Assembly: GCA_000585075.1 (NCBI GenBank)
Contig: JEMY01000035.1
Coordinates: 1-33,122, forward strand
Direction: 5' to 3'
Source: Candidatus Accumulibacter regalis
GTDB taxonomy: Bacteria; Pseudomonadota; Gammaproteobacteria; Burkholderiales; Rhodocyclaceae
DNA: 33,122 nucleotides
In this document: positions 1,163 through 16,484 of the stretch, in pieces
How the letters are laid out: each line of letters begins with the position of its first letter
Numbering within the stretch: position 1 is the stretch's first letter
The notes under the pieces: generated by a model
What the model was told of the DNA's origin: nothing
The model's input: the letters and a program-made list of their open reading frames with translations, nothing else
Databases searched by the model: none
Position numbers and translations under genes: made by a program

Positions 1163-4100
1163 TTAGCGCTTCCTGCGCGCCTCGATTTCGCGCCGGATAC
1201 GCTCGATCTCGAGGTGTTTGGCCTGCGGAGTACCCCATCTGACGGGCCTCTGCGCCGCGGCGGCCTGCTCAGCCTCGCGCTGCGCCTGCAGCGCTCGCGC
1301 TTCGGCCAGGCGTTCTTCCTCGAGGGCCTGCGCACGGGCCACGGCGCGCTCGGCAGCGATCGGCACGCGCCATCCGGGCAGACCCGCGTCGAGAAGCAAG
1401 CGGTCGATGACTTTCGGAATCGGCTCCGGCCATTCCCAGTCGTTCAGCCGGGAAAACTCGTTGATCAGCGGCAGGTTGAGCGCGGCGCAGACTGGCGTCC
1501 ACACTTCCTCGTCGCCCTGGCGGCGCCGGACGGCGAGTTTGGGATTGAGCTGGTACCAGCCCTGACTGACGCGCCTGAACAGCGCCCGGTTGTACGCGTA
1601 GTCGCGGTCGATTTCGTTGCGCGCCAGGACGCTGGAAAGATGCTGGCGCCGGTTGCGTTCCGGACGGACGATATTGGCCGGCAGATGCTGCCAGGCGTCG
1701 AGAATGGCCTGCGCCTCGAAAGCGCCGTTGCTGCGGCGCTGGCGGTGACTGAAGCGGGACTTGAAGAGAACCCATAGCGTCTGGAAGAGGAAGTACTCCG
1801 ACAGGTGCCGGTCGAGGCGAACCAGGCGTTCGCCGGTATTGACGTCGATGCTCGCCGGGGCGAGCCGTTCGTAAAGCGCGGCCAGCGGGCCGCGGGCGAA
1901 CTTCGCATCGCGGAATCCCTCGCGCAACGCCCAGTGCAGCGCGTTGTAGCCATAATGGTCAACGGCGTCGCGGTCGGCGCCACGCTCGAGCAGCGCTTCG
2001 ACCAGCGGTACGTTGCCGGCCGCAGCCGCGGCCATCAGCGGCGTCAGGTTCATCGGCAGTCGATGCTCGACCCCGTACTGCTGGCATTGCTTCAGGATGT
2101 CCTTGAAATGGTTGGCGAAGTAGGGAAGGTAGGTCTTTCGTGCAAACTTCGCCCGTTGCTGCGCGAAGTTCGTCGCCGGCTCGAACTTCGCCTCCGCGAC
2201 CAGCCATTCGGCGAGTTGCGCTTCGTCGTGACAGGTCGCGTATTCATAGAGCTGCTGCTTCATCTTGGCGCCGGGGGCCTGTTCGCGGAAGACCTTGACC
2301 AGCAGCTCGACGACTTTCGCTTCGCCGAAAACCGGCCAGGGAACCGGCGTTTGCTTGAGGATCGTCCGACGGATCGTCTCGGCCTGTTCCTGCTTGCCCT
2401 GCAGTTCGAGCTTGCGCGCTTCCTTCTGCCAGTCTTCGAGGCTCGATTGCCTGGCCTCGACCTCGACCTGCCCGAGATTCATTTCGAGCAGCCCGAACAG
2501 CGCATGGCCGGTATCCGACTCGATCACGTAAACATTCCTGATCGCGCGTGTCAGCGCCACGTAGAGGGCATTGACGAAGAACTTGTAGACCTCGAGCGAC
2601 TTGTCGCTCTTGTCTTTCGCCCGCCGGTAGTCAAGCGTATCTGCGGCCAGGTCGGCCGGTTCCACGCCGTCAACGATCTCGCTGAACTCGGCGCGGTGGT
2701 CGGAGATGAAGCGGTAGAGGACGATATTGTCGTATTCGAGCCCCTTCGCTTCATGGATCGAGAAGAGCAGCGGCGTGGCGAAGTGCTTCCTGGCTTCGGC
2801 CTTGTCCTCGTCGCGCATCACCAGCACGGCGAACTGCGTCGATTGGCGAATCTTCTGGTCGAGCTCGCGCTTGCCGGCGTCCTTGTCGGGCATTAGCGCG
2901 ACCTGTCCGGCTTCGCCGCCGACCGCCTGCACGAGGAAGTTGCTCTCGCGGTCGATCGAGCCGAAGCGCCGGTGCTTGATCTTCAGCAACTGGTTGGCGA
3001 CACGGGTGGCCTCGAGCCCGTTGCGGAAGTTGGCGGTGAGCACACGCAGTTCCTGCCGCTCGGCCAGCTTCGGGTCTTCCCAGAACAGGCTCTTGACCTG
3101 GCTCCAGGAAAAGAAGTTGGGATGGACGATCTGGTTCGAATCGCCGCAGAGCAGGAAGTGGCCCGGCCTCTTCAGAGTCCTGAGGACCAGCGCCAGTTGC
3201 ACCGTGGTGATGTCCTGCACCTCGTCGACGACGACGAAATCGTAGCGCGGTGCCGCCAGCGCCTGCCAGTCCTGGGCGACCAGATTGAGGTCGTAGAGCT
3301 TCGCTTCGGCGAGCCAGCCACGGTACTTCTCGAACAGGTCGTAGAGCCGGTCGCGCAGATCGACCGGAAAGATCGACTGGCGCACGCCGAGCGCCAAATA
3401 GTCGTCGCGCGCGAGGACGCCACCGGCCCTGGCCGCAAGCACGCCGCGGATCTCCTCAAATACCTGATGGCCGTCGAACTCCCGGAACGTCTGCCGCATG
3501 CGTCCGAACCAGCCGGCGAAGTCGCGCCAGCTCGCCTCGCGACCCGCTGGCACGTGGATCGACTCGACGAATTCGCGGTAGGAGAGGAAAACGGCCTCCT
3601 GGCCGCTGCGCTCGAAGCCGTTGGCGTAGTAGAGGTCGCGGGCACTTTGCGCGAGGTAGCTCGAGTGCGTGACGTAGAGCACCTCGCCTTCGGCGTGCTT
3701 GAGTTTCTCGAGGGTCAGCGCGGTCTTGCCGCTGCCGGCGCTGCCGACGACGATCAGCGGTGCTGGCTGGTGATAGATCGCCTCCTGCGTGTCGTCGAAG
3801 GAGATCGGCTTGTCGAGCAGGTGAATCGCCGTCCGCTCCGGGTGCAGGTAGCGCACCGGCAAGGCTTCAGCGATCGCCTCGTCGGCGTCGATGTCCAGGA
3901 TCCGGCTCTCGTCGATCGCCGCGCCGCGCAGAAAGCGCGACTTGTCGTAGTCGTGATTGGCGATCACTTCCAGCATCAGCGCGCAGACCTCGTCGCCGTG
4001 GCGAACCAGCGAGAACAGCAGCCGGTCGGCGTCGTCGAGCCGGGCGCGGTAGAACCTGCCGTGGCTGAGATTGACCAGCTTCTTGACCTGTGCGGCACGA

Positions 4101-4258
4101 AAGTCGTTGCGGGCGATGGCATCAGCCACCTTGCGGTAGCTGGCCTTGACGCGGGCGGTGTCAAGGCCGGTGTATTCGAGAATTTTCACGGTGAGTTTCG
4201 GCGCGGAGGGTGTGACAACGAAGCCGGATCCTACCTTGCCGCGGTCGGCGCTGGCCAT
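1163..4258 (-). CDS. UvrD-like helicase with N-terminal ParE/RelE-like domain and ankyrin repeats
   Basis: A 1031-aa fusion. Residues ~24-110 resemble a ParE/RelE-type toxin fold (GRFYRARLDDADRLLFSLV, then the hydrophobic strand EVCALMLEVIANHDYDKSRF). Residues ~155-580 form a superfamily I helicase with all core motifs: Walker A GSAGSGKT (172-179), Walker B VVVDEVQD (342-349), GDSNQIVHPNFFSW (372-385), LTANFRNG (407-414), HEAKGLEYDNIVL (502-514) and LYVALTRA (565-572). Residues ~735-785 carry ankyrin-type units (TPLMAAAAAGNVPLVEALLERG, split here: TPLMAAAAAG, then NVPLVEALLERG). Residues 970-1031 are a charged coiled-coil-like helix. An in-frame TAA directly precedes the ATG, so the protein cannot start earlier. 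No strong ribosome site is seen, and a GTG at residue 24 is an alternative start. The gene stands alone between mobile-element remnants. A DNA repair or anti-phage role is possible, but the substrate is unknown. Confidence 0.85.
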   Translation of the reverse strand: MASADRGKVGSGFVVTPSAPKLTVKILEYTGLDTARVKASYRKVADAIARNDFRAAQVKKLVNLSHGRFYRARLDDADRLLFSLVRHGDEVCALMLEVIANHDYDKSRFLRGAAIDESRILDIDADEAIAEALPVRYLHPERTAIHLLDKPISFDDTQEAIYHQPAPLIVVGSAGSGKTALTLEKLKHAEGEVLYVTHSSYLAQSARDLYYANGFERSGQEAVFLSYREFVESIHVPAGREASWRDFAGWFGRMRQTFREFDGHQVFEEIRGVLAARAGGVLARDDYLALGVRQSIFPVDLRDRLYDLFEKYRGWLAEAKLYDLNLVAQDWQALAAPRYDFVVVDEVQDITTVQLALVLRTLKRPGHFLLCGDSNQIVHPNFFSWSQVKSLFWEDPKLAERQELRVLTANFRNGLEATRVANQLLKIKHRRFGSIDRESNFLVQAVGGEAGQVALMPDKDAGKRELDQKIRQSTQFAVLVMRDEDKAEARKHFATPLLFSIHEAKGLEYDNIVLYRFISDHRAEFSEIVDGVEPADLAADTLDYRRAKDKSDKSLEVYKFFVNALYVALTRAIRNVYVIESDTGHALFGLLEMNLGQVEVEARQSSLEDWQKEARKLELQGKQEQAETIRRTILKQTPVPWPVFGEAKVVELLVKVFREQAPGAKMKQQLYEYATCHDEAQLAEWLVAEAKFEPATNFAQQRAKFARKTYLPYFANHFKDILKQCQQYGVEHRLPMNLTPLMAAAAAGNVPLVEALLERGADRDAVDHYGYNALHWALREGFRDAKFARGPLAALYERLAPASIDVNTGERLVRLDRHLSEYFLFQTLWVLFKSRFSHRQRRSNGAFEAQAILDAWQHLPANIVRPERNRRQHLSSVLARNEIDRDYAYNRALFRRVSQGWYQLNPKLAVRRRQGDEEVWTPVCAALNLPLINEFSRLNDWEWPEPIPKVIDRLLLDAGLPGWRVPIAAERAVARAQALEEERLAEARALQAQREAEQAAAAQRPVRWGTPQAKHLEIERIRREIEARRKR

Positions 4259-5312: not shown

Positions 5313-5355
5313 TTGGTAATTCCTGAACTTTTTGTCTATACTTTGTCCTAGACAA
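5313..5355 (+). promoter_or_regulatory. Promoter with palindromic operator TTGTC-CTA-GACAA upstream of the P-type ATPase
   Basis: A TATACT hexamer at 5337-5342 is followed immediately by the 13-bp palindrome TTGTC-CTA-GACAA (5343-5355). A possible -35 (TTGGTA, 5313-5318) lies 18 bp upstream of the hexamer. A second TTGTC half-site lies at 5332-5336, one helical turn from the first. If the hexamer is the -10, the palindrome covers the transcription start, as in classical repressor operators. The same arrangement recurs at 14996-15015. The elements are seen directly; promoter function and the identity of the regulator are inferred. Confidence 0.6.
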
Positions 5356-5468
5356 TTAGAGTGCGGCTTTCTAATTCCAATCATGGCCGCACCGATTTTC
5401 GTGGCGGTGGTTCGAGTATCTCAGTTCGAGCACGCGCGTAAAAAAACAACCGTACAGGAGTAAAGACC

Positions 5469-8198
5469 GTGCAAGACCTCTTGCAAAAGCACTGGCACCA
5501 CCTGCCGGCAAGCGAGGTGATCGACCTCCTCGATACCCGTGGCGAAGGCGGGCTCGATCAGTTCGAAGTCAGCGGGCGCCAGGAACGATTCGGTGCCAAC
5601 GCCCTGACCCCTGCCAAGGGCAAGGGCCCCCTGCAGCGCTTTCTGCAACAGTTCAACCAGGCGCTGGTGTACATCCTGGTGGCTGCGATCGTGATCAAGC
5701 TGGCCCTGGGTGGCTATGTCGATGCGGCTGTGATTTTCGCCGTGGTCCTGCTCAACGCCGTTCTTGGCTTCGCCCAGGAAAACAAGGCCTTGAACGCCCT
5801 CGCTGCGCTGTCGCGCGCGCTGACCACCGAGGCAACGGTCGTGCGCGCCGGGAACAAACAGCGGATCAACGCCCGCGACCTGGTTCCGGGCGATCTGGTC
5901 ATGCTGGCTTCTGGCGACAAGGTTCCGGCGGACCTGCGCCTGCTGCAGGTCCGCGACCTGCAGGTCGACGAGTCCGCCCTGACCGGTGAATCGGTTCCGG
6001 TCGCCAAGCAGGCCGGCGAACTGGCGCACGACGCGGCGCTCGCCGATCGCCGCAACATGGCCTATACCTCGACCTTGGTGACCTATGGCACGGCGACCGG
6101 AGTCGTCATCGCCATTGGTGACGGCACCGAGATCGGCAACATCTCGGGTCTTATCGCCGGCACGCAGCAACTCGATACTCCGCTGACGCGACAGGTCGGG
6201 CGCTTCAGCCATTATCTGCTCTACCTCATCCTGGCCCTGGCAGCGTTGACCTTCGTCGTCGGACTTGCGCACGGGGAATCCTGGGTGGCGATGTTCATGG
6301 CGACTGTCGCACTGGCGGTGGCGATGATCCCGGAGGGTCTGCCGGCGGTGCTCACCATCACCCTGGCCATCGGCGTCGGGCGCATGGCGCAACGTCACGC
6401 GATCATCCGCCGCCTGCCGGCGGTCGAGACATTGGGCAGCACGACCGTAATCTGCTCGGACAAGACCGGCACCCTGACACGCAACGAGATGACCGTGCAG
6501 AAGCTGTCCGCGGGCGGCGCTCACTTCGACCTCAGCGGCGTCGGTTACGGCCCTGAAGGTAGCCTGCAGCAGCAAGGGCTGGCCGTCGACCCCGGCAAGC
6601 ATCCCGCCCTGGCGGCGCTGCTGCGCGCCGGCCTGCTCTGCAACGACTCGCTACTGCGCGAGAGAGATGGCATCTGGCAGGTCGAGGGCGACCCCACCGA
6701 GGGTGCGCTGCTGGTAGCGGCGCGCAAGGCCGGTCTGGATTCACAGGAGGCCCTCGCCGGCGCGCCGCGCCTCGATGCGGTGCCTTTCGAATCGCAGCAT
6801 CAGTACATGGCGACCCTGCATGCCGGCGAGTCGCGAATGGTTTTTATGAAGGGCTCGGTGGAGAGCGTGCTGGCGCGCTGCAGCGGCGCGCTGGACGCCG
6901 GAGCGAAGACGGTGACGTTCGAGCCCGAGGTGGTGCTCGCACAGGTGGACGCAATGGCCGCGGCAGGGCTGCGCGTGCTCGCTTTCGCCCAGCGTCCCGC
7001 GAGCAACGATCAGGAGACGCTCGGCCATCAGGACCTGGCCGAGGGAATGACCTTCGTCGGCCTGCAGGGAATGATCGACCCGCCACGCGAGGAAGCGATC
7101 AGGGCGGTCTCGGCGTGTCGCGACGCCGGTGTTCGCGTAAAGATGATCACCGGCGACCATGCCGTCACCGCAGCCGCCATCGCCGGCCAGATCGGCCTCG
7201 ATCAGCGTGCCGGTCCGGGCGCTGCGCCGGCGGCGCTGACCGGTACGCAACTGGCCACTCTTTCCGACAGCGAATTGACCGCCGCGGTAAACGATACGGC
7301 CGTGTTTGCGCGCGTCACCCCCGAGCAGAAGCTGCGTCTCGTACAGGCGCTGCAAGCGCGCGGCGAGGTGGTGGCGATGACCGGTGACGGGGTCAACGAC
7401 GCACCCGCCCTGCGCCGGGCAGACATCGGCGTGGCGATGGGAATCACCGGCACCGAGGTGGCCAAGGAAGCCGCAGACATGGTGCTCACCGACGACAACT
7501 TCGCCACCATCGCCGCCGCCGTCGAAGAGGGACGAGGGGTCTTCGACAATCTGACCAAGTTCATCACCTGGATCCTGGCGACCAACGCCGGCCAGGGACT
7601 GGTGATCGTCGTCGCGGTAATGCTCGCCCAACCGCTGCCGGTCCTGCCCGTGCAGGCGCTGTGGATCAACATGACCACGGCGGTCTTCCTCGGGCTAGCG
7701 CTGGCCTTCGAACCCAAGGAACCGAATCTCATGAGCCGTCCGCCACGCGCTCCCGGCTCGCCGATCGTGAACGGCGAGCTGGCGCTGCGTATCGCGATGG
7801 TCGGCGTGATGCTCCTGGTCGGCGCCTTCGGGCTCTTCGAGTGGGCACTGCTGCGCGGCGCCAGTGAAGAGCAGGCGCGTACCATCGCGGTCAATGTGTT
7901 TGCGGTCGGACAGTCCTTCTACCTGCTCAACTGTCGCTCGCTGCGCTGGTCGATGTTCCACCTCGGCTTGCTGAGCAACCCGTGGATCTGGGCCGGTATC
8001 AGCACCATGATGCTCGCCCAGCTCGCATTCACCTACCTGCCACTGTTCAACCACCTGTTCCACACTGCACCAATTGCCGCCTTCGACTGGTTGCCGATCA
8101 TTGCCGTCGGACTGACGATCTACCTGGCGATGGAGTTCGAGAAGGCCTACCGGCGTCGCAGCGGGGCCCTGCCCCGATTCGCGCGAGCGCTGCGATGA
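5469..8198 (+). CDS. P2-type cation-transporting ATPase
   Basis: A 909-aa P-type ATPase that pumps a cation across the inner membrane through a phospho-aspartate cycle. Visible motifs are the actuator TGES (172-175), PEGLP in M4 (288-292), the phosphorylation site DKTGT (331-335) and GDGVNDAP (639-646). The N-terminal cation-ATPase domain and the C-terminal M7-M10 segment are present, giving full length. The start is GTG at 5469, with AGGAG at 5456-5460 eight bases upstream. It resembles SERCA/PMR1-type pumps overall, but two acidic Ca2+ ligands are missing: M5 has NAGQ (Gln709 where SERCA has Glu771), and M6 has NMTTA (Ala738 where SERCA has Asp800). Calcium specificity should therefore not be assumed. 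The upstream operator is shared with the photolyase operon, suggesting stress or light control. Confidence 0.93.
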   Translation: MQDLLQKHWHHLPASEVIDLLDTRGEGGLDQFEVSGRQERFGANALTPAKGKGPLQRFLQQFNQALVYILVAAIVIKLALGGYVDAAVIFAVVLLNAVLGFAQENKALNALAALSRALTTEATVVRAGNKQRINARDLVPGDLVMLASGDKVPADLRLLQVRDLQVDESALTGESVPVAKQAGELAHDAALADRRNMAYTSTLVTYGTATGVVIAIGDGTEIGNISGLIAGTQQLDTPLTRQVGRFSHYLLYLILALAALTFVVGLAHGESWVAMFMATVALAVAMIPEGLPAVLTITLAIGVGRMAQRHAIIRRLPAVETLGSTTVICSDKTGTLTRNEMTVQKLSAGGAHFDLSGVGYGPEGSLQQQGLAVDPGKHPALAALLRAGLLCNDSLLRERDGIWQVEGDPTEGALLVAARKAGLDSQEALAGAPRLDAVPFESQHQYMATLHAGESRMVFMKGSVESVLARCSGALDAGAKTVTFEPEVVLAQVDAMAAAGLRVLAFAQRPASNDQETLGHQDLAEGMTFVGLQGMIDPPREEAIRAVSACRDAGVRVKMITGDHAVTAAAIAGQIGLDQRAGPGAAPAALTGTQLATLSDSELTAAVNDTAVFARVTPEQKLRLVQALQARGEVVAMTGDGVNDAPALRRADIGVAMGITGTEVAKEAADMVLTDDNFATIAAAVEEGRGVFDNLTKFITWILATNAGQGLVIVVAVMLAQPLPVLPVQALWINMTTAVFLGLALAFEPKEPNLMSRPPRAPGSPIVNGELALRIAMVGVMLLVGAFGLFEWALLRGASEEQARTIAVNVFAVGQSFYLLNCRSLRWSMFHLGLLSNPWIWAGISTMMLAQLAFTYLPLFNHLFHTAPIAAFDWLPIIAVGLTIYLAMEFEKAYRRRSGALPRFARALR

Positions 8199-8290
8199 AG
8201 TGCAAGGCGGCGTACCCACCATCAATCAACGCGGCGTGTTCCGGGTCAGCCGCTCGGCGCCCGGTCGCTGCCCCTACTGGACGGACTCCA

Positions 8291-8896
8291 ATGCGCAAGT
8301 TCCTGCTTTCCCTGGCCCTCGCAGCCGCACCAAGCCTGTCGAGCGCCATCGAGGAACCCTCCTACGAAGTCGAGCGAAGGATCGGTGAAATCGAGGTCCG
8401 GCGCTACGCGCCCTACGTTGTAGCGGAGGTGATTATCAATGCCCCGGCCGAGGAGGCAGGCAGTGAAGCGTTCCCGATCCTTGCCGGCTACATCTTCGGC
8501 AAGAACAAGGGCTCGACGAAGTTCGCCATGACCGCGCCGGTAACCCAGGCGCCCGCGCCGATGCGGCTCGAAATGACCGCGCCGGTGACCCAGGCCGCCG
8601 CTCCGGGGGGCTATCGCGTGCAGTTCGTGTTGCCCAGCGAGGTGACGCTCGACCTGGCGCCCGAACCGGACGACGCGCGGGTGCAACTGCGCGAAGTGCC
8701 AGCAAGCACCGTCGCGGTGATCCGCTACTCTGGGTTCTGGACCCGGGCCAATTACGATGAGCACCTCGCCGAACTCGAAACCGCCTTGCGTACGGCCGAC
8801 GTGAGCTGGTTTGGAGAGCCGGTCCTGGCGCGCTACAACCCTCCTTTCATGCCGTGGTTCCTGCGCCGCAACGAGATCTGGTTGAAGCTCCGGTGA
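8291..8896 (+). CDS. SOUL-family heme-binding protein, exported
   Basis: A 201-aa protein. Residues 1-19 form a signal peptide (MRKFLLSLALAAA, cleavage probably after SSA), followed by a SOUL/HBP domain that starts YEVERRIGEIEVRRYAPYVV. The family hallmark MTAPVTQ occurs twice, 15 residues apart, and the C-terminus has ARYNPPFMPWFLRRNEIW, the typical SOUL end. Family members bind heme or porphyrins non-covalently; here this would happen in the periplasm. The gene starts 92 bp after the ATPase stop and has no promoter of its own that I can see, so it may be co-transcribed. Porphyrins are photosensitisers, which fits the proposed link to the photolyase block. That functional link is inferred. 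Confidence 0.9.
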   Translation: MRKFLLSLALAAAPSLSSAIEEPSYEVERRIGEIEVRRYAPYVVAEVIINAPAEEAGSEAFPILAGYIFGKNKGSTKFAMTAPVTQAPAPMRLEMTAPVTQAAAPGGYRVQFVLPSEVTLDLAPEPDDARVQLREVPASTVAVIRYSGFWTRANYDEHLAELETALRTADVSWFGEPVLARYNPPFMPWFLRRNEIWLKLR

Positions 8897-9074
8897 GGTT
8901 TGTCGCAACGGCCTGGAGGCCTTCATGACCATTTGACGCCATGTCTGCCAGCCAGCCGCCGCCGGTTGCGCCGTGGCGCGCGCCGCCGTCACGCACGCCG
9001 GAACTTCGTTCTGGCCATGGGGATCCCTGGCGTGCTCAGAAGGAATTTTTAACCGTTCCAACAAGGAGAGAAAA

Positions 9075-9545
9075 ATGCGGAAATATCCCATCGATAGCCC
9101 GGAAGCCATGGCACGGATCGTCGCCCTGGCCCTGCTCGCTGACGGCGCGCTCGACCACAGCGAAGTCGAGGCACTCGAAAAGCATGAACTTCGCGGGGAT
9201 CCGGGCATCCCCCCCGAGACGCTTGAGCGAGTCATCCATGAATTCTGTAATGACCTGATGCAAACGGCCCGCGCGCCAAATATCGGACAGATCGAGCTCG
9301 ATCTGCAATTGGTCGATCACCTGCTGGATGACATTCAGTCGCCTGAGCTGCAGAAAAAGGCCTTGACCGCGATCGTCGACATTGTCAACGCGGACGCCAC
9401 CCTCAACTCGGGAGAAGCCATTCTGATATCGCAGGCCATGAGTCGCTGGGGGCTGGAACTGCAACGGGTGACACAGGTCGAGGTGCGTGAGGCGAAGCAC
9501 TTGTCGCCGATCGTTCCAGGGCAGGTTCAGGTCGCGGAAGCCTGA
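9075..9545 (+). CDS. TerB-like (tellurite resistance B family) protein
   Basis: A 156-aa acidic, all-helical protein with no signal peptide. Two internal units typical of TerB-like domains are visible: LLADGALDHSEVEALEKHE near residue 20, and IVNADATLNSGEAILISQA near residue 105. Both have acidic residues that bind divalent metal in family structures. The start is ATG with AAGGAG at 9063-9068, well placed. The gene follows the SOUL gene by 178 bp. TerB domains occur in metal, oxidative and phage stress proteins, and the name 'tellurite resistance' does not prove that function. No other ter genes are present in the window, so this is a solitary TerB-domain protein. Confidence 0.8.
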   Translation: MRKYPIDSPEAMARIVALALLADGALDHSEVEALEKHELRGDPGIPPETLERVIHEFCNDLMQTARAPNIGQIELDLQLVDHLLDDIQSPELQKKALTAIVDIVNADATLNSGEAILISQAMSRWGLELQRVTQVEVREAKHLSPIVPGQVQVAEA

Positions 9546-9591
9546 TTGACTGAACAGCAAGATGGGCAAGAAAGACGCCCGCCACCGTTTC

Positions 9592-9629
9592 GATCAAGCG
9601 CTCCGTGGCAGGACGGCGGAGTGCTGATC
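9592..9629. terminator. Imperfect stem-loop downstream of the TerB-like gene
   Basis: The arms GATCAAGCGCTCCG (9592-9605) and CGGAGTGCTGATC (9617-9629) pair except for one bulge and one mismatch, around an 11-nt loop. There is no convincing T-run after it, so it is a weak terminator candidate or an mRNA-stabilising hairpin. It lies between the convergent terB-like and psiE genes, where a terminator would be expected. Confidence 0.35.
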
Positions 9630-9747
9630 TCGATGCGCTTTCGACTCCATGAGCTGACCATCGAGCAATGCCTACAGCCTTCATCCAGTGGTTCGGCACC
9701 GCCAGCGGCAGTCCCTTATCCGTCGCGAAGCTCTTGACCCGGCTCTC

Positions 9748-10215
9748 TCACTTCTTGGGCTGCGAAGAGACCAGCCAGTAGGTAACACCCAGCGCCAGCA
9801 GGATAGCTGCCATGCCGTAGAGATATTCGGCTTGCAGGGTGCTCAGGTCGAGCACGATCACCTTACGGGCGATGGCCATCAGTGCGGTCGCTACGACAAG
9901 TTGCACGTGGATGACATCGTCGCGCAGATAGAGGGTGATATTGACCAGGATTTCGATGGCGATCAGCACTGCCAGAAAGGCCGCGAAGACGACAAAAATA
10001 TCGTTGAGGTCAAGAAGCAGTACGGGCGGTTTTGACAACGCGTTGTAGAGAACCAGCACCACATCGGCAACGCACCACAGGATGACCAACGTCATCAGGA
10101 CGGCCAGCAGGCGAATGGCTTGACGGATGACTCGATGCAATCCGCGTACCAATGGATCGTCGTGTTTCTCCGAAAGATGATCGTCGTGAAGCGCCGACCC
10201 GTTTTCCTCTGACAT
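9748..10215 (-). CDS. psiE: PsiE-family membrane protein (phosphate-starvation-inducible)
   Basis: A 155-aa inner-membrane protein with four hydrophobic segments: LLAVLMTLVILWCVADVVLV, FVVFAAFLAVLIAIEILVNI, VVATALMAIARKVIVL and YLYGMAAILLALGVTYWL. The pattern LNDIFVVFAAFLAVLIAIEI and ARKVI are typical of PsiE, which E. coli induces under phosphate starvation; its molecular role is not known. The start chosen is the ATG at 10215 (MSEENGS), because AGAGG lies eight bases upstream. An in-frame ATG 6 bp earlier is too close to that site, and a more distant one (10281) has no ribosome site. It is convergent with the TerB-like gene, and no Pho box was identified. Confidence 0.85.
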   Translation of the reverse strand: MSEENGSALHDDHLSEKHDDPLVRGLHRVIRQAIRLLAVLMTLVILWCVADVVLVLYNALSKPPVLLLDLNDIFVVFAAFLAVLIAIEILVNITLYLRDDVIHVQLVVATALMAIARKVIVLDLSTLQAEYLYGMAAILLALGVTYWLVSSQPKK

Positions 10216-10613
10216 ATTCATGGCCTCTTGACCGTTGGTTGAGCGCTGACCTGAGAATGGGTGCTCCAAAGTCACATCCACAAGTATCCTTAACCGCCAT
10301 AGCCGAAGTCAATCAAGAAGTTCTCGTTGCCGCCCCTGGAGACGATCAGCAGCCAATCCTGAAGCAGGTCACGCACCAAGCGGTGCCTCGTGGTATCCGA
10401 TACTGGCCTCCCAGCGAACACGCGTCGTTGCCTCTCCGCCACCTCGTATTGAAAGGCGCAATACGGCGTATTGGAGCTGCAGCGAGCCGCTGCCGCGTTC
10501 GACGCCGCCATGTCACTGCTGAAACGCCGTCCCCATTGCAGGGGTTTGGGGGGAAACAATGGAGCAGCGAAGCGAGTTAAAGGCCGAGCAGATGCGTCGA
10601 ATGGAGGTCATGC
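10216..10613. other. Intergenic between psiE and the histidine phosphatase gene
   Basis: No recognisable gene. A minus-strand open frame at 10290-10559 (up to 89 codons, Cys- and Arg-rich) has no family I know and no clear ribosome site; it could be a remnant. A short CCCC...GGGG hairpin near 10540 was noted. Confidence 0.35.
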
Positions 10614-11195
10614 TCATGAACCTTCTCGTGCTTCGACGGGAATGACACCAAGCCATACCGGCATCGGGGTTCCATTGACCTGAAAAACACTGCCGCCACC
10701 GGCAGGCGGCGTTGCCTCGGTGAAGGCGTTCACCACCACTTGATGGGTGACCAGGATCACCGGCCGGCCATCAACGGGCAAGCTGGCGAGAAACGATCGC
10801 AAGGCGTCGAGAGTTCTTTCCCGATCGTCCGGCCGCCCGAAGAAGGAATTCAGCGCCGGCAAGGACTCTACCGGGCCAAGGTCCAGTAGGCGGGCCGTTT
10901 CGAGCGCACGGCACCACTGGCTGGAAAAGACTCGTCCATTGGTCAGGCCGACCGCACGCAGACGGGTGCCCAACTGTCGTGCCTGAGCCCGGCCGCTGGC
11001 GTCAAGATTCCGCTGCGTGGAACAATCGCCGATGACGAAATTCGGCGGGTCGCCGAACCCCGGCGCGCGGGCATGCCGCAGCATCAGCACACGGCCCGGT
11101 TTTGCGAGTTCGCCGAGCGACAAAGCCGGATCATCGGCCCACGCCGGAAACGACCATGACATGACTACCAGTACAAGGATGAGCCGCTTGCGCAT
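10614..11195 (-). CDS. Exported histidine phosphatase family protein
   Basis: A 193-aa protein. Residues 1-21 form a signal peptide (MRKRLILVLVVMSW...PAWA). The phosphatase core follows: RVLMLRHARAPG holds the catalytic RHA motif (RHG in most relatives), VFSSQWCRALETA is the second conserved Arg motif, and VTHQVVVNAF carries the second catalytic His. Branch-2-like periplasmic members hydrolyse phosphate esters; the substrate here is unknown. The start is ATG at 11195 with AAGGAG just upstream, in preference to a longer form. It is the last gene of the six-gene minus-strand operon and begins 13 bp after the CIA30 gene ends. Its place beside photolyase genes is unexplained. Confidence 0.85.
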   Translation of the reverse strand: MRKRLILVLVVMSWSFPAWADDPALSLGELAKPGRVLMLRHARAPGFGDPPNFVIGDCSTQRNLDASGRAQARQLGTRLRAVGLTNGRVFSSQWCRALETARLLDLGPVESLPALNSFFGRPDDRERTLDALRSFLASLPVDGRPVILVTHQVVVNAFTEATPPAGGGSVFQVNGTPMPVWLGVIPVEAREGS

Positions 11196-11208
11196 TCTTC
11201 TCCTTCCT

Positions 11209-11709
11209 TCAGCCGACAAGTTCGATCGCGCGCAGATCGAGCTTGAACGGACCCACTTGTCGATCGGCGATCAGAAGGCCCACTTGTCTTGCCGATGAGA
11301 CGGCCAGCGGTGGCAGGTGGTCGAGGACGCGCCCTCGCCAGGTCGGGATAAAATCGGCGACGGCCAGTTCTATCCTGGTCCACTCCCCAGCCGGTGGCTG
11401 AAAAGCCGCCTGGTAACTGACACCGTCGAGCTCGGCGCCAGTCCGAATGCTGAACTTGTAGCGCTTGCCGTCGCCGCGCACGGTGAGCAAACAGGCTGAA
11501 CCGCCCACGCTAGCGGACGCTATCACCGGTGAGCGAACGGACGCAAAGCCGCCGTTGTTGGTGAGGGAAAGCGATCCCGAGAAGGCGGCATGCCCTTCCG
11601 TATGAAAAGCCATCCGGCTGCCCGAGACCCCCCCCATAACGCGATCGTCGATGGCGTACCAGCCGGCGACGGCCTCGGGGGTGTCGAATCGGCAAATCGG
11701 AGTCGTCAT
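11209..11709 (-). CDS. CIA30-family (complex I intermediate-associated protein 30) protein
   Basis: A 166-aa soluble protein matching the CIA30/NDUFAF1-like beta-sandwich. It has an N-terminal AIDDRVMGGVSGSRM motif, characteristic of the bacterial family, then SLTNNGGFASVRS and a C-terminal RQVGLLIADRQVGPFKLDLRAI, split here: RQVGLLIADRQ, then VGPFKLDLRAI. In eukaryotes the family helps assemble respiratory complex I. The bacterial members are uncharacterised and resemble carbohydrate-binding folds. It sits fifth in the minus-strand operon, after the ABC1 kinase (118-bp gap) and before the phosphatase. No signal peptide is visible, so it is probably cytoplasmic. Confidence 0.87.
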   Translation of the reverse strand: MTTPICRFDTPEAVAGWYAIDDRVMGGVSGSRMAFHTEGHAAFSGSLSLTNNGGFASVRSPVIASASVGGSACLLTVRGDGKRYKFSIRTGAELDGVSYQAAFQPPAGEWTRIELAVADFIPTWRGRVLDHLPPLAVSSARQVGLLIADRQVGPFKLDLRAIELVG

Positions 11710-11827
11710 GCCTGCTGCCCTGGTCTATCGAAAGCAGGTAGCCATCCGCCCCTGCCAACCCCGGCCCGGAACGACGCACGGCGACGATTGGGCGGCAGGC
11801 CCGGCCATTCAGCATCTCGCTTCCGGC

Positions 11828-13177
11828 TCATGACGGCGCCTGCCTCGACGCGTAAGGCTGGAACAGGGCGCCGATGTCCACCCGCGCCTTGAGCTTTGCC
11901 GCCAGTAGATAAAGACCGCCTGCCTTGCGGTGCAAGAACAGGGCATCCGCCGGTGGCGTATGCCAAGAATCCCTTTCGCTGCTCAATGCCAGGCCGGCGT
12001 CGCGGATTCGCGCTGGCAGATCCGAATTCCCGAAATCGTAGGCGCCGGCGTAGCGCAAGGGTTCGCAGGCGTGCAGAAATACGTCAAGGACGAGTTGCCG
12101 CTGCCTCTCCCCGATGTCAGCCCGAAAGTAGCCGATAGCGCTGGCGGCCATGCTCATTTCCTGCCGGTCTCCGACGATGGCACTCGCCATCAGCCGGCGA
12201 TAGGCCTCGACGACAACTGCCGGGTAGGGGCGGGTGGCGCCAAAGTCGAGCAGAATTAGTTTGCGGCTGGCTTTGTCGTAGCGGTAGTTGGCGAGATTGG
12301 GGTCGGTCTGGACCAATCGGAATTCGAAGATCTCCCGAAAAAGCAGCCGGAACAGCAGTCCTGCCACGCGGTCCCGCTCGGCTTGCGGGGCATGCAGCAA
12401 GGATTCGACCGGCACGCCTCCCATGCAGGACATCGCCAGGACGCTCTCCGTCGTCAGGTCGGCGTGCACCCCGGGCAGAATGAACTCGGGCGCGTCGGCA
12501 AGAAGTCCGGCGTAGCGGCTGAGCCAGGCGCCCTCACCGAGATAATCCGCTTCGGCGTGCAACTGACGTTTCGATTCCCGCAGCAGCGGTCCGACATCCA
12601 GTCCTCTGGGCAGCAGTCCAGAGACACGCAGCAGGGTGGCGACATTATCGACGTCGCTGTCGATACTCTGGCGGACACCCGGGTACTGGACCTTTATGGC
12701 CAGGCGCCGCCCGTCCCTCGTCTGCGCCAGATGGACCTGGCCCACCGACGCTGCCGCCTTCGGCGTGAAGGAGAACTGCCGGAAATGACGGTCCCAACCA
12801 TGCCCCCAGTTGGCGTCGAGCACATTGACCAATTGGCTCATTGGCATGGCTTTGGCGTCGGCGCGCAAGCGTGCCAGGATAACGCCAAACTCCGGAGGCA
12901 ACAGATCGCCTGCATCCATGGACAACAGTTGCCCGAACTTCATCGCTGCCCCGCGTAATCGGGCAAGCTGATCGGCAACCCGGTACGCGTTCTCAGGCGT
13001 CAGCAGCAAGTCGGCAATTCGCGGACGCTTGCCTTGGGCCAACTGTCGTGTGCCTTGTGCCAGCATACTGCCGGCAACACCGCTGGCGAGAACACCCAGC
13101 CGGGCAAGCCTGGACCACCGTCCGCCGGGAACGGCCGCGGTGCTTGCGTCGCGTTTGCTGCTCTCATCGTCGAGCAT
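11828..13177 (-). CDS. ABC1/COQ8 (UbiB-like) atypical kinase
   Basis: A 449-aa protein of the ABC1/ADCK family. The KxGQ motif is MKFGQ (79-83). The Ala-rich loop AAASVGQVHLA (141-151) replaces the glycine loop, and the ATP lysine is in LAIKVQYPG (K162). EADY (209-212), TDPNLANY (291-298) and LDFG (310-313) complete the active site. The QTDPN...N form is the COQ8/ADCK3 type rather than the H.DxHPGN form of many UbiB proteins. COQ8 supports ubiquinone biosynthesis or lipid homeostasis by ATP hydrolysis. Unlike E. coli UbiB, no clear C-terminal transmembrane hairpin is seen. The start at 13177 is chosen because the upstream extension of the frame overlaps the next gene. No ubi genes lie nearby; it belongs to the photolyase-linked operon. 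Confidence 0.88.
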   Translation of the reverse strand: MLDDESSKRDASTAAVPGGRWSRLARLGVLASGVAGSMLAQGTRQLAQGKRPRIADLLLTPENAYRVADQLARLRGAAMKFGQLLSMDAGDLLPPEFGVILARLRADAKAMPMSQLVNVLDANWGHGWDRHFRQFSFTPKAAASVGQVHLAQTRDGRRLAIKVQYPGVRQSIDSDVDNVATLLRVSGLLPRGLDVGPLLRESKRQLHAEADYLGEGAWLSRYAGLLADAPEFILPGVHADLTTESVLAMSCMGGVPVESLLHAPQAERDRVAGLLFRLLFREIFEFRLVQTDPNLANYRYDKASRKLILLDFGATRPYPAVVVEAYRRLMASAIVGDRQEMSMAASAIGYFRADIGERQRQLVLDVFLHACEPLRYAGAYDFGNSDLPARIRDAGLALSSERDSWHTPPADALFLHRKAGGLYLLAAKLKARVDIGALFQPYASRQAPS

Positions 13178-13233
13178 GCGGCCTCGCTTTTCGTCTGATC
13201 CGACAGTAGCCCGGAACACTTGGCGACGATTCT

Positions 13234-13593
13234 TCAATACGAAGCCGGCTGCCGGCAATCGGGAGAATCCGGGACTTCCGAATCCTCGAGCGGATAGGCG
13301 TCGGCCACGTAAGCGGGACCTTTCATCACCATGACGATGAACGCAGCAATCGCCACCGTCAGCACCACCGTCCAGTGCAGGACGGCGATACTGAGCGCAA
13401 GAATGTCGACCATCTGGAGGTGAGTCGAGGCGTCCACTGCATCCCCTCCGCCGAGAAAAATTCTCGCCGCCAGCGACGGCAGGGCCAGAAGCAGCGTGCC
13501 GAAAACGAGCACACGGGGTAACAGACGGAGCACGTCGCGCTCGCGACCAGCCGGCGTCTGCACGAATTCCGGAAGTCTGTTGAAGGCGTTCAT
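13234..13593 (-). CDS. Small membrane protein, family not recognised
   Basis: A 119-aa protein with two strong hydrophobic segments: LLPRVLVFGTLLLALPSLAA (~24-43) and LALSIAVLHWTVVLTVAIAA (~65-84), continuing into FIVMVM. It ends in an acidic tail (PLEDSEVPDSPD). The start codon is preceded by AAGGAG, a good ribosome site. It lies between the DUF3429 gene and the ABC1 kinase gene in the minus-strand operon (32-bp and 56-bp gaps). No catalytic motif is visible. Membrane location is supported by composition; function is unknown. It is a candidate partner for the ABC1 kinase or DUF3429 protein. Confidence 0.78.
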   Translation of the reverse strand: MNAFNRLPEFVQTPAGRERDVLRLLPRVLVFGTLLLALPSLAARIFLGGGDAVDASTHLQMVDILALSIAVLHWTVVLTVAIAAFIVMVMKGPAYVADAYPLEDSEVPDSPDCRQPASY

Positions 13594-13625
13594 TGGGGCT
13601 CCTTTGCTCGACGGGTTTTGGACGA

Positions 13626-14093
13626 TTACCAGGTTTCAGCGAAAGCACCTGCTGTCAGGCAAACACAGGCCACCGTAGTCAGCCGGAAGCGCAGCGGCAG
13701 GTACCAGGCCGGCAGATGGCTGGCGGCGATCAGAAATCTATCCTGCCAGTAGTGGGCAAGAAACCCGGTCACCAAAAGGACACTCGCCAGCATCGGCGAG
13801 AACAGAAATGCCGACCAGGCGATAAGTGCGGGGACGACACTCCAGACGAAGCACCACGTCCGCTGACTTGCGCTCAGATCCGTCAAAGTCATGGCGAACC
13901 CCCAATGCAGGGCGCCGACGAAGGTCAGGATCACCGCACCGTAGGCAAACAGCGCATCGCTCCAGAGCTTAGCGTGGTGCGGGTCGACGAGGCTGGCGGG
14001 GGCGAGGACGAGAAACGGCAGCAGTCCTCCGTAACCGAGCCAGGCAACGCTGCGCGGAATGCGTGCAACGGGAGTGGGCAGAGAGTGGTCCAT
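13626..14093 (-). CDS. DUF3429 integral membrane protein
   Basis: A 155-aa protein with about five hydrophobic segments. The first is VAWLGYGGLLPFLVLAPASL, and a central YGAVILTFVGALHWGFAM carries the conserved F.GA.HWG signature of DUF3429. A WCFVWSVVPALIAWSAFLF segment and LVTGFLAHYWQDR follow, also typical. DUF3429 proteins are often found near photolyase and other light-stress genes in proteobacteria; their role is unknown. It is second in the minus-strand operon, 6 bp after the SDR stop, so tight co-translation is likely. Confidence 0.86.
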   Translation of the reverse strand: MDHSLPTPVARIPRSVAWLGYGGLLPFLVLAPASLVDPHHAKLWSDALFAYGAVILTFVGALHWGFAMTLTDLSASQRTWCFVWSVVPALIAWSAFLFSPMLASVLLVTGFLAHYWQDRFLIAASHLPAWYLPLRFRLTTVACVCLTAGAFAETW

Positions 14094-14099
14094 CGCGCC

Positions 14100-14840
14100 C
14101 TACCTGACCAACGGTCGAACGGTGGAAAAGCCGGCGTCCATCGACCACACCTGGCCGGTCACCCGGGCCGCCTTGTCCGAGAGCAGCCAGACCATCAGTT
14201 CGGCCAGTTCGTCGGGTGAGCCAATGCCCGGCAAGGGGTACTGGCGAGCCGCCGCCTCGCGGCCCATCGCGGTGCCGAGAATGGCGGTGGAGGCAGGCGT
14301 GTCCATGATGCCGGGGGCGACGGCGTTGATCCGGATGCCATTGCTCGCGTAGGTCGCCGCGGCGCTGCGTACCAGCCCTTCGACACCGGCTTTCGCTGCC
14401 GCTACTGCTTCGTGATTGGGAGTGCCGATCCGTGCAGCCGCCGACGAGACCAGCACCGCCGATCCCGGGCACTTGGCGTCGCGCAAGGCGCCGACGAAAG
14501 CCGCCAGAGTATGGAAGGCGCTGAACAGATTGGCGCTGAGGCAGGCCGCAAAGTCGGCGTCGGACATGCGATGCAGAGCGCCCAGGCGAATGTTGCCAAC
14601 GCAGTGCGCGAAGGCCGTGGGCAGCAACTGGTGCGCCTTGGCGACCTCAAGAACGTGGCGTGCTCCGGCAACGCTGGAGCAGTCAGCGACCACCTGTACG
14701 TGGCTGTCCCCGTAGCTGTGGGTCAAGCGCTCACCGTCCCGGCTGGTCAGCAGTAGTTCCCAGCCGGCCTCTGCCAGCCTGGCCGCCACCGCTTGACCCA
14801 GCCCGCCTGCTGCTCCAGTGACCAGGGCTACTTTCTCCAT
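14100..14840 (-). CDS. Short-chain dehydrogenase/reductase lacking the catalytic tyrosine
   Basis: A 246-aa Rossmann-fold protein. The cofactor motif TGAAGGLG is at 8-15, ahead of the usual beta-alpha-beta unit. Asn104 and the serine pair VLVSSAAA (Ser132/133) are in place, and the C-terminus has NAVAPGIMDTP. The usual YxxxK is here V146-AAA-K150, within PNHEAVAAAKAG, so the proton-donor Tyr is replaced by Val. The enzyme may use another mechanism or act as a binding protein. It is the first gene of the minus-strand operon, with GGAG about ten bases before the ATG, and is divergent from the TIGR02450 gene. The 177-bp gap carries four inverted repeats. The substrate is not predictable. Confidence 0.88.
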   Translation of the reverse strand: MEKVALVTGAAGGLGQAVAARLAEAGWELLLTSRDGERLTHSYGDSHVQVVADCSSVAGARHVLEVAKAHQLLPTAFAHCVGNIRLGALHRMSDADFAACLSANLFSAFHTLAAFVGALRDAKCPGSAVLVSSAAARIGTPNHEAVAAAKAGVEGLVRSAAATYASNGIRINAVAPGIMDTPASTAILGTAMGREAAARQYPLPGIGSPDELAELMVWLLSDKAARVTGQVWSMDAGFSTVRPLVR

Positions 14841-14928
14841 GACATCTCTTCTCCGGCTCAGCTGTTCTTAAGGAAGGGACTCCACGGGCGCCAATGAAAT
14901 CATCAGACTTACCGATCTGGAGCATTGT

Positions 14929-14941
14929 TTGTGCTAGACAT
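14929..14941 (-). promoter_or_regulatory. Degenerate operator (TTGTG-CTA-GACAT) on the SDR side
   Basis: This 13-bp site differs from the ATPase operator TTGTC-CTA-GACAA at only two positions. On the minus strand it is preceded by a TAAAGA stretch in the position of the -10 found next to the other two copies. It lies 89 bp upstream of the SDR start codon, which fits a promoter for the minus-strand operon. Similarity is seen; function is inferred. Confidence 0.45.
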
Positions 14942-14951
14942 CTTTAAGGCG

Positions 14952-14972
14952 AATGACCACGTAAAGGTCATT
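14952..14972. promoter_or_regulatory. Inverted repeat AATGACC-N7-GGTCATT in the divergent promoter region
   Basis: A perfect 7-bp inverted repeat with a 7-nt spacer, midway between the two putative operators. It could bind a dimeric regulator shared by both operons. No matching copy was found upstream of the P-type ATPase. Confidence 0.45.
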
Positions 14973-14973
14973 T

Positions 14974-14991
14974 GTGCGTTATACTACGCAC
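14974..14991. promoter_or_regulatory. Inverted repeat GTGCGT-N6-ACGCAC in the divergent promoter region
   Basis: A perfect 6-bp inverted repeat whose loop is TATACT. It overlaps the region where the -35 of the plus-strand promoter would lie: TTGTGC at 14972-14977 is 19 bp from the TATAGT hexamer. A spacer that long is typical of MerR-type activated promoters, but this is only suggestive. Confidence 0.4.
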
Positions 14992-14995
14992 CCAA

Positions 14996-15015
14996 CTATA
15001 GTTTGTCCAGGACAA
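14996..15015 (+). promoter_or_regulatory. Promoter with palindromic operator TTGTC-CAG-GACAA upstream of the photolyase operon
   Basis: TATAGT (14997-15002) abuts the palindrome TTGTC-CAG-GACAA (15003-15015). Over 22 bases from 14995 the sequence matches the ATPase promoter (5335-5356) at 18 positions. The palindrome touches the start codon of the TIGR02450 gene, and its AGGA also serves as the ribosome site. If TATAGT is the -10, the mRNA leader would be only about 5-10 nt. Confidence 0.6.
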
Positions 15016-15017
15016 TG

Positions 15018-15305
15018 ATGAGTAAAGCCGTGAAATCATCTTCCGCACCCGGATCCGAATCACAGGCCTTCGGCTTACCGCCTGCTCGCCGTCTGAACCC
15101 GAAGAAGCTGTTGCTCAGCAAGTGGACGGCGGCCACCCCGCATGACAAGGAGAAACACTTCATCGTTACCGGGGTGATTCAGCCGGAGTCCCCGGCCACT
15201 CGAATCGAGAGCATCGAACTGGAATCGGTGTACTCTCGGCGGTTGTTTTCGCTGCCCTGGCGTGATCTAACCGACGGCCAGCAGTGGCTGCAAGGCTGGC
15301 AATGA
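15018..15305 (+). CDS. TIGR02450 family small protein
   Basis: A 95-aa protein. The diagnostic block RLNPKKLLLSKWTAATPHDK followed by EKHFIVTGVI is characteristic of TIGR02450, a family of small uncharacterised proteins often next to photolyase or flavoprotein genes. Further on it has ESIELESVYSRRLFSLPWRDL and ends in WLQGWQ, again family-typical. ATG codons at 15015 and 15018 are in frame. The second is preferred because AGGA at 15009-15012 is better spaced; an upstream in-frame start at 14925 would place the operator inside the gene. It is the first gene of the plus-strand operon. The function is unknown. Confidence 0.84.
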   Translation: MSKAVKSSSAPGSESQAFGLPPARRLNPKKLLLSKWTAATPHDKEKHFIVTGVIQPESPATRIESIELESVYSRRLFSLPWRDLTDGQQWLQGWQ

Positions 15306-15363
15306 CTTGTGCCGGGAAGAATTCGCGCGCAGGCTCGTCGGATTGATGATTGACAAGGAAGCC

Positions 15364-16356
15364 ATGAATTACCCTCCGCATATTGCGCTGATCGGTGCCG
15401 GCATCGCCGGCCTGTCCTGCGCCACGGCACTGCAACGGGCTGGCCTCGAAGTCAGTCTGTTCGACAAGAGTCGCAGCCCCGGCGGACGTATGAGCACCCG
15501 TCGCGGCGACGACTGGCAATGCGACCACGGCGCCCAGTATTTCACCGCTCGCCACCCCGCCTTCCGCGCCGAAGTGGAGCGCTGGCAGCAGGCCGGGGTC
15601 GCGGGCGTTTGGGCTCCCAGGCTATCGATGTTTGATGGCGATTCGCCGGAAGAACGCGAGCCGACGGTCGAGCGCTTTGTCGGTATGCCGACGATGACCG
15701 CGCCTGCCCGGTATCTGGCCAGCACTCTGGCCGTGCACGCGCGAACGAACATCCAGCAGTTCAGGCCTCAGGCGCACGGCTGGCAGGTTTTTTCGGCTGA
15801 ACAGGGCTGGCTGGAAACGCGCTTTGCGGCCGTCCTGCTGGCCGTACCTTCGCCGCAGGCGGTACCACTATTGCAGCAAGCGGCCCCCGATTTGGCGGCA
15901 CTGGCAAGCAGCGCCGTGATGCGCGGCTGTTGGGCGCTTATGCTGCGCTTTGCTGCGCCGGTCGACCTGCCGTTCGATGCCGCCTTCGTCAATCGGGGCC
16001 CACTGCGCTGGCTCGCCCGCAACAGCAGCAAGCCGGGCCGCAGCGGCGAGGAAACCTGGCTGCTGCACGCCTGTGCAGACTGGAGCGAGGCGCATCTGGA
16101 AGAAGATTCCGAGAGCGTCGCCGTCGCCCTGCTATCCGCCTTTGGCCAACTCGGCGGTCCAGCCCCACAGGAATGGACTGTCCACCGCTGGCGTTACGCC
16201 GACACCGAACCGGCCCTCCACGAGGGTTGTGCCTGGCGTCCAGACATTGGCCTGGGCCTTTGCGGAGACTGGCTCAACGGCGGCAAGGTAGAGGGTGCCT
16301 GGCGCAGCGGCCGGACGCTGGCCGAACAGGTGTTGCAGTCGTTCGCGCGATGCTGA
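15364..16356 (+). CDS. FAD-dependent amine-oxidase-like (renalase-type) oxidoreductase
   Basis: A 330-aa protein. The N-terminal dinucleotide motif is IALIGAGIAGLSCATAL, with an acidic strand end (SLFDKSRSPGGRMSTRR) that binds the FAD ribose and phosphate. CDHGAQYFTAR follows, as in the renalase/NAD(P)-binding FAD family. The C-terminus has IGLCGDWLNGGKVEGAW-like residues (LGLCGDWLNGGKVEGAW), the second FAD contact. The substrate of bacterial members is mostly unknown. The start is the ATG at 15364 with AAGGA just upstream; a TTG at 15307 would add 19 residues without a good ribosome site. It begins 58 bp after the TIGR02450 gene, and its last bases overlap a small frame that leads into the photolyase gene. 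Genes of this family recur next to photolyases in proteobacteria. Confidence 0.88.
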   Translation: MNYPPHIALIGAGIAGLSCATALQRAGLEVSLFDKSRSPGGRMSTRRGDDWQCDHGAQYFTARHPAFRAEVERWQQAGVAGVWAPRLSMFDGDSPEEREPTVERFVGMPTMTAPARYLASTLAVHARTNIQQFRPQAHGWQVFSAEQGWLETRFAAVLLAVPSPQAVPLLQQAAPDLAALASSAVMRGCWALMLRFAAPVDLPFDAAFVNRGPLRWLARNSSKPGRSGEETWLLHACADWSEAHLEEDSESVAVALLSAFGQLGGPAPQEWTVHRWRYADTEPALHEGCAWRPDIGLGLCGDWLNGGKVEGAWRSGRTLAEQVLQSFARC

Positions 16357-16484
16357 TGGCCGGACTGAGTGAATCGCGGCCCTGCCACGAACCTTTCCTC
16401 CTGACGCACCGCTTGCCCGGTCTGGAGCGGAAGCGCGGCTTGCCGCAACGCCAGCGCCGGGGGCTTTACCAGAAAACCGCATGA
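16350..16484 (+). CDS. Possible 44-aa leader-like small protein coupled to the photolyase gene
   Basis: The frame starts with an ATG overlapping the stop of the FAD gene and ends in an ATGA overlap with the photolyase start (16481). It encodes an Arg-rich peptide (LERKRGLPQRQRRGLYQKTA at its end) with no recognised domain. The photolyase ATG has no good Shine-Dalgarno site of its own, so translation through this frame could couple the two genes. It occupies the place where other genomes often carry a small DUF2256 gene, but it lacks that family's cysteines. It may be only a spacer. Confidence 0.3.
   Translation: MLMAGLSESRPCHEPFLLTHRLPGLERKRGLPQRQRRGLYQKTA

Follow-up and report, generated by a model that had tools for sequence, protein, structure and literature searches.

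Class I CarH proteins are bound to DNA in the dark together with adenosyl-B12 (AdoB12) and released by light (PMC8156234), and their operators are described as tandem 11-bp direct repeats, nnnnTnnACAn, in which TnnACA is contacted (PMC9304148). Among the genes on which regulators of the LitR type act in Pseudomonas are the light-induced phrB, folE, SDR and FAD-oxidoreductase genes (PMC9758184). Here we analysed a stretch of 33,122 nucleotides from Candidatus Accumulibacter regalis (assembly GCA_000585075.1, contig JEMY01000035.1, positions 1 to 33,122 of the forward strand; hereafter the window), in which two palindromes of the form TTGTC-N3-GACAA stand before a P-type ATPase gene and a photolyase operon. 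These palindromes very probably serve as operators for a repressor of the LitR/CarH family whose gene lies elsewhere in this genome. The computed evidence consists of the regulator gene, its B12-site residues, the operator consensus, the conservation of the sites, their co-occurrence with the regulator, and their pairing around a sigma-70-type promoter. The sensor family is known, and the paired palindromic operators look like a new arrangement.

The candidate regulator gene lies on another contig of the genome (G000:C26, locus L041:4538-5497, minus strand). Judged from its sequence, its product belongs to the LitR/CarH family, and the B12-site residues are intact. The 319-residue product of this MerR-type gene has an N-terminal MerR_1 domain (PF13411, 51.4 bits, cut-off 21.6) followed by matches to B12-binding_2 (32.6 bits, cut-off 23) and B12-binding (36.0 bits, cut-off 32.1), which is the domain set of class I. 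Aligned with Thermus CarH (about 111 bits, phmmer), it retains both W-x9-EH and E-x-H-x-x-G. We take ExHxxG to be the cofactor-site signature of class I LitR/CarH proteins. The residues W-x9-EH are named as cofactor-site residues of class I CarH in PMC8156234. Because the B12-site residues are intact, class I CarH chemistry would be expected in this protein. Its closest named relative, from Candidatus Accumulibacter appositus, is 89% identical, although very near records may be missing from that comparison; NCBI taxonomy places the genus in Betaproteobacteria. A cluster of operators flanks litR: four of the five genomic copies of TGTCCNGGACA fall within about 415 bp beside it, and the fifth is at the photolyase operon. 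A first-pass annotation of the window, made from its letters alone, had forecast a MerR-type regulator gene near the motif, and four core copies indeed stand beside this LitR/CarH-family gene. Opposite litR, in divergent orientation, are folE2 and then genes for an FAD oxidase, a CFA-like methyltransferase, an MFS transporter and an SDR.

The palindrome tracks litR in related genomes. We surveyed the 150 genomes of search family f1 (below, the family), which presumably corresponds to Rhodocyclaceae, and found LitR in 60 of them. Fifty litR loci, our own included (30 + 20), were picked by LitR alone, with a site defined by at most two mismatches and TGT/ACA ends. All 50 had a palindrome within about 500 bp upstream of litR, compared with a mean of 0.2 of 50 (maximum 1) in dinucleotide shuffles of the upstream DNA, and the six B12-site residues were intact in every one. 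A second, overlapping set of 28 loci, partly chosen by the motif, kept these residues in all 28 and an upstream site in 27. The exact 13-mer TTGTCYWRGACAA was present in 58 of the 60 family genomes with litR and in 12 of the 90 without it (Fisher p = 7e-27, a value that overstates the evidence because the genomes are related), against 14 of 60 and 24 of 90 for the reversed 13-mer (p = 0.7). The two LitR genomes without the exact 13-mer, G071 and G115, have sites with one or two mismatches.

From the 12 genomes with the 13-mer and no litR match, the sites of nine were fetched, leaving G102 (five sites), G150 and G184. In seven of these nine, every fetched site lay inside an open frame of more than 150 amino acids and is probably coding by this mechanical test. 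G095 passes the test, yet its site (L218) precedes a glutathione peroxidase gene, and G106, an assembly that is 85% complete, has one site at folE2 (L215) and one further site. Two exact 13-mers from genomes without a litR match (L221:2992 and L222:3017) lie in similar open frames beside what is, by eye, a rhamnose-synthesis-like gene, and so recur in DNA that is probably coding.

Within the genus, TGTCCAGGACA gave 94 matches in 28 genomes and its reversed control gave 28, counted over both strands, and the regions of all 69 sites outside our own genome were fetched. Fifty-nine of the 94 lay outside mapped genes, with a gene of the litR or photolyase cluster less than 1 kb downstream; the remaining 35, some of them within genes, were taken as a group. 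Four of the 28 genomes had no litR match at our threshold. Two of them (G006, G011) have no site, and in G020 the site (L108) lies beside a litR truncated by the contig end. G003 has three sites, two inside long open frames by the mechanical test and the third being L051; one of the first two, L052, also sits, by eye, between ribosomal-protein-like and GTPase-like frames. At L057, L073 and L078 a palindrome with similar flanks stands near position 3501 beside a lipocalin-like gene (Pfam for L057 and L078); L057 is counted among the 59 and the other two among the 35.

To describe more distant targets, 20 regions of LitR genomes, picked among the matches listed, were read. Homologues of genes of our regulon were near the site in eight (L194, L196, L199 and L205-L209). 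Pfam identified a DNA photolyase at L206:3044, a glutathione peroxidase at L204:3052, fasciclin at L193:3050 and L203:3041, and lipocalin at L199 and L201. The 13-mers at L206, L204, L193 and L203 belong to other genera of the family. Some distal sites adjoin photolyase clusters, and others, L200 and L210 among them, are located within long open frames.

The 50 litR loci yielded 116 sites, which define the consensus TTTGTCCWGGACAAA, a 15-bp palindrome with A or T at its centre and almost no information beyond it; since sites were selected by TGT/ACA ends and a near-consensus middle, the consensus at those positions partly reflects the selection. An additional TTGTC at -11 accompanies six of the 116. 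Neighbouring sites upstream of litR are most often 62-64 bp (24 cases) or 72-75 bp (8) apart, with single cases at 84, 86 and 95 bp, a further group at about 149-163 bp, and scattered values. The close pairs enclose the promoter of the divergent operon. On L146, taken as an example of the 63-bp class, the first operator is followed after 4 nucleotides by the -35 element, after 17 by the -10 element and after another 17 by the second operator. The corresponding gaps are 15, 17 and 17 on L128, an example of the 74-bp class, and 15, 17 and 15 at our own folE2, and compared with the 63-bp class, the 74-bp class adds one helical turn on one side only. Phase coherence of the nine distinct spacings was 0.82 at 10.5 bp (simulated p ~0.001) and 0.84 at 11 bp, values inflated by neighbouring spacings and common descent. 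Operator pairs placed mostly six or seven helical turns apart around a promoter suggest looping, and sites on the same face of the helix would suit a loop or a cooperative bridge. We tentatively consider it possible, though somewhat short of probable, that a photoreceptor of class I type loops DNA in the dark between two phased palindromes around a sigma-70 promoter and that light opens the loop. If so, this operator architecture would be unlike that of the CarH proteins described in the literature examined.

The photolyase is present in 14 of the 28 genus genomes, and the main predicted LitR-type operator of its operon, TTGTCCAGGACAA (15003-15015), was recovered in all but one of these, 13 in number. 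The 13 comprise eight of nine loci fetched for the photolyase alone, together with our own, G014, G015, G002 and G025; the exception, in G027, has a photolyase of 46% identity. The first-pass annotation had described an identical layout at the ATPase and photolyase palindromes, each directly abutted by a -10-like hexamer. This looks coincidental at the photolyase, where TATAGT (14997-15002) adjoins the palindrome in our genome only and in none of the other 14 loci aligned by eye. Its lack of conservation led us to reject it as the -10 element. About 23 bp upstream of the palindrome, 10 of the 15 aligned loci show, by eye, a TAnnnT hexamer, and the likely -10 is the one in this column, TATACT at 14980-14985 (plus strand), with the palindrome 17 nucleotides downstream and adjoining the start codon. 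The 15-17-17 geometry common with one litR promoter class would place the -35 element at 14957-14962 (plus strand), which reads CCACGT and is a poor match.

The upstream operator of this promoter, TTGTGCTAGACAT (14929-14941), lies 74 bp before the main one. It is the weaker third copy that had been noted as facing the divergent SDR operon; its position stands, and its role is corrected to that of the upstream member of an operator pair. Counterparts with one to four mismatches occur 73-75 bp before the main operator in 11 of the 15 aligned loci, own included (that of G018 is only a second-best match, with four mismatches), two loci have a partner at 65-66 bp, and two have none that is convincing. 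Within the main operator, AGGA (15008-15011, plus strand) ends 6 nucleotides before the ATG at 15018 and is a possible Shine-Dalgarno sequence of the TIGR02450 gene. In seven of the eight loci with an asymmetric centre (the exception is G023), TCTAGGACA is on the sense strand with AGGA kept, and the operator may double as a Shine-Dalgarno sequence, a modest point as the genomes are related. The operon reads, on the plus strand, TIGR02450/DUF2389 Trp-rich protein (15018-15305; family searches used the longer frame 14925-15305), FAD-dependent amine-oxidase-like protein (15307-16356, Pfam) and a DPRP-family protein related to photolyases (PF04244, Pfam, 16481-18019). The photolyase frame is partial or contains a stop in several relatives; in G014, G021, G022 and G025 it is interrupted by a stop and the operator is retained.

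The second predicted operator, TTGTCCTAGACAA (5343-5355), precedes a type II, Ca2+ pump-like P-type ATPase (5469-8198, plus strand; Pfam), whose best NCBIfam match, TIGR01522, scores 692.7 bits, under the cut-off of 798.3. The ATPase is at least 93% identical in six genomes, our own included, and upstream DNA is present in five of them (the contig of G022 ends). All five carry TGTCCTAGACA together with a TTGTC half-site exactly 11 bp before the left half of the palindrome (5332-5336, plus strand, in the window). Between half-site and palindrome lies the probable -10 element, TATACT at 5337-5342 (plus strand), which is TATACT, TATAAT or TATTCT in the five orthologues. The 11-bp core of the palindrome is the longest invariant run; of the 219 non-coding columns 100 are invariant, and no other window of 11 columns is invariant throughout. 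A second operator within 120 bp of the ATPase site was not found in the five orthologues (best candidates with 4-6 mismatches), and single-site repression is proposed here. Downstream, possibly co-transcribed with the ATPase, is a gene for a SOUL heme-binding protein (8291-8896, plus strand; PF04832, 157 bits, in frame 7982-8896), whose start at 8291 and signal-peptide-like N-terminus were picked by eye. The plus-strand frame after it (8973-9545) shows a weak TerB likeness (22.1 bits against a cut-off of 24.4) and overlaps a frame on the opposite strand.

The two modules first noticed, TATACT with TTGTCCTAGACAA and TATAGT with TTGTCCAGGACAA, are both present in the window sequence, and their flanks match at 18 of 22 positions (counted by eye), as had been claimed. 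They are the only exact TTGTC-N3-GACAA sites in the window. A genome scan had been suggested to show whether the motif is enriched in promoters, and its outcome was divided between the number and the placement of sites. Using the reversed motif as control throughout, relaxed TTGTC-N3-GACAA had 7 matches in the whole genome (4.63 Mb) and its control 4, and with one mismatch allowed the counts were 76 and 47; as the genome-wide excess is not clear, this form was rejected as a signal. The exact 13-mer TTGTCYWRGACAA occurs in the genome only at the two sites reported (control, 2), and the five copies of TGTCCNGGACA are likewise equalled by the control. The refined core TGTCYWRGACA is found at litR/folE2 (four places), the ATPase (one), the photolyase operon (one) and C44:183156 (one), so that the signal resides in where the sites stand, six of seven being at litR/folE2, ATPase or photolyase, and not in their number. 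The match at C44:183156 was dropped as an operator because it forms the stem of a terminator-like hairpin, and the near-matches at C50:32437 and C15:63161 were dropped because both appear, from the ORF lists, to be inside genes. Site conservation and co-occurrence with litR support the proposal of a shared regulator site that joins the ATPase-SOUL pair and the photolyase block in one regulon, and the gene set and LitR support its light or photo-oxidative theme, with light induction itself being inferred.

Compared with the class I LitR/CarH proteins of Thermus, Bacillus megaterium and Myxococcus, which are adenosyl-B12 photoreceptor repressors, the protein described here likewise combines a MerR domain with both B12-binding subdomains, W-x9-EH and ExHxxG; a contact of the TnnACA type is discernible in the half-site, and a site is similarly located at the regulator's own gene. 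The targets differ, being carotenoid genes in class I CarH and photolyase, folE2 and ATPase genes here. The gene set is very similar to that of the class II LitR proteins of Pseudomonas (PplR1 and PmlR2, with a LOV partner), namely photolyase, SDR, FAD oxidoreductase, furan fatty-acid synthase and folE, and P6650 has two sites around one sigma-70 promoter, as here (PMC9758184). However, the class II operator in that source, T(G/A)TACA-N12-TGTA(C/T)A, is unlike our palindromes, and class II proteins are described with only one of the two B12 domains, whereas this LitR has both. Pseudomonas-type TGTACA was seen upstream of litR in only 2 of 30 loci (L133 and L143), in a scan for this half-site. 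The class III LitR of Burkholderia multivorans is also betaproteobacterial and associated with a light-dependent change, but its C-terminus is described as unlike a functional domain (PMC9758184), in contrast to the two B12 domains here. The first-pass annotation did not recognise the motif as the site of a described regulator; the family turns out to be a described one, while the operator is unlike those described for the members compared. A literature search with the core strings returned no LitR/CarH paper by title, and TTGTCTAGACAA occurs in PMC9113418, on Bacillus licheniformis promoters. No paper joining Accumulibacter, light and CarH was found, and Accumulibacter with photolyase matched a single paper, on cyanobacteria, in a search that was made without the 2018/2020 J Bacteriol LitR papers and the 2018 JBC CarH operator paper.

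In the regulation that we propose, AdoB12-bound LitR would occupy the operators in the dark and block RNA polymerase. It would probably bridge two sites across the promoter at litR/folE2 and at the photolyase operon, and would sit on the -10 element at the ATPase; sites next to the ATPase -10, and flanking the promoter at the other operons, are in positions that suit repression. Light would cleave the cofactor and LitR would release the DNA, so that photolyase, FAD oxidase, TIGR02450, the folE2-FAD oxidase-CFA-like operon, litR and ATPase-SOUL would be switched on together.

Several observations weigh against LitR-mediated repression at these palindromes. Apart from the relatedness that inflates the co-occurrence statistic, the seven genomic matches of the refined core do not exceed the nine of its control, and the photolyase promoter fits the 15-17-17 geometry with a poor -35. 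One of the two LitR genes in G007 (L226, G007:C73) keeps the B12-site residues and has no upstream site. In 12 of 50 loci the loose criterion also gives matches within the first 480 nucleotides of the litR coding sequence, far above shuffles; such motif-like sequences inside litR (for example L109:3901 and L103:3978) may reflect codon constraint or internal operators. The protein scores 134.8 bits against the NCBIfam CarH equivalog NF052513, below the curated cut-off of 400, and is therefore filed in the LitR/CarH family and not as a CarH equivalog. Finally, class I CarH operators are described as three or four tandem 11-bp direct repeats, whereas those here are 15-bp palindromes, often in phased pairs. 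The two strands of TGTCC-T-GGACA read TGGACA and AGGACA, so that two CarH-type TnnACA contacts would overlap, and the direct-repeat mode does not explain how LitR would bind such compact palindromes.

The MerR-type DNA-binding domain and the poor photolyase -35, which may need help, would also fit a LitR that acts mainly as an activator in the classical MerR style, with light or B12 altering the activating form. We consider this unlikely, because the -35 and -10 elements of the divergent-operon promoters are good and stand 17 bp apart (here TTGACA-N17-TATAGT), one of the operators is situated downstream of where transcription is expected to start, as befits a repressor, and PmlR2 represses in vitro (PMC9758184). 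Co-occurrence alone cannot tell a regulator from a target, and an unlinked regulator that binds the palindromes and also controls litR could account for the sites at folE2 in G106 and before glutathione peroxidase in G095, both among the 12 genomes with an exact site and no litR match. The upstream site at all 50 litR loci, the probably coding position of all fetched sites in seven of the nine genomes, and the incompleteness of G106 make such a regulator very improbable. Still less credible is a singlet-oxygen regulon under an ECF sigma factor with a ChrR-type anti-sigma factor; a blue-light response of Vibrio cholerae does run through a MerR protein and ChrR/sigmaE (PMC5241685), but our site is a symmetrical palindrome and not TGATC-N16-18-CGTAW, and it tracks litR. 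As for the ATPase copy, it might be a chance or drifting match outside the regulon, near a real photolyase operator, since the ATPase orthologue is known from few genomes of the genus (five others at 93% identity or more, one cut by its contig), all close relatives. That too seems improbable to us, given the invariant core and the invariant TTGTC 11 bp upstream, and given that TGTC-N3-GACA was absent from the fetched DNA of four ATPase paralogues in our genome and of one homologue of 58% identity.

Candidatus Accumulibacter is active in phosphorus removal in wastewater plants, and operators of a LitR/CarH-family repressor at these genes would predict a testable light response for it with a likely regulator named. 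The light-gene set of Pseudomonas would be extended by a calcium-pump-like ATPase and a heme-binding protein. Palindromic, phased operators further suggest that the B12 light sensor can read DNA in a second geometry, which bears on the understanding of CarH and of CarH-based light-controlled gene tools.

Pfam and NCBIfam searches bore out the gene content first proposed, from the cation ATPase, SOUL, photolyase, FAD oxidase and TIGR02450 genes to the SDR, DUF3429, ABC1 and CIA30 genes of the opposite strand. There, the divergent operon begins with the SDR oxidoreductase (14100-14840), and the minus strand further carries genes for a DUF3429 protein (13626-14093), an ABC1 atypical kinase (11828-13648), a CIA30 protein (11209-11709) and a histidine phosphatase family protein (10614-11219), all assigned by Pfam. 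Elsewhere in the window, the minus-strand frame 1163-4258 encodes a protein of 1031 residues that combines UvrD/REP-type helicase motifs with ankyrin repeats, a combination that seems unusual to us.

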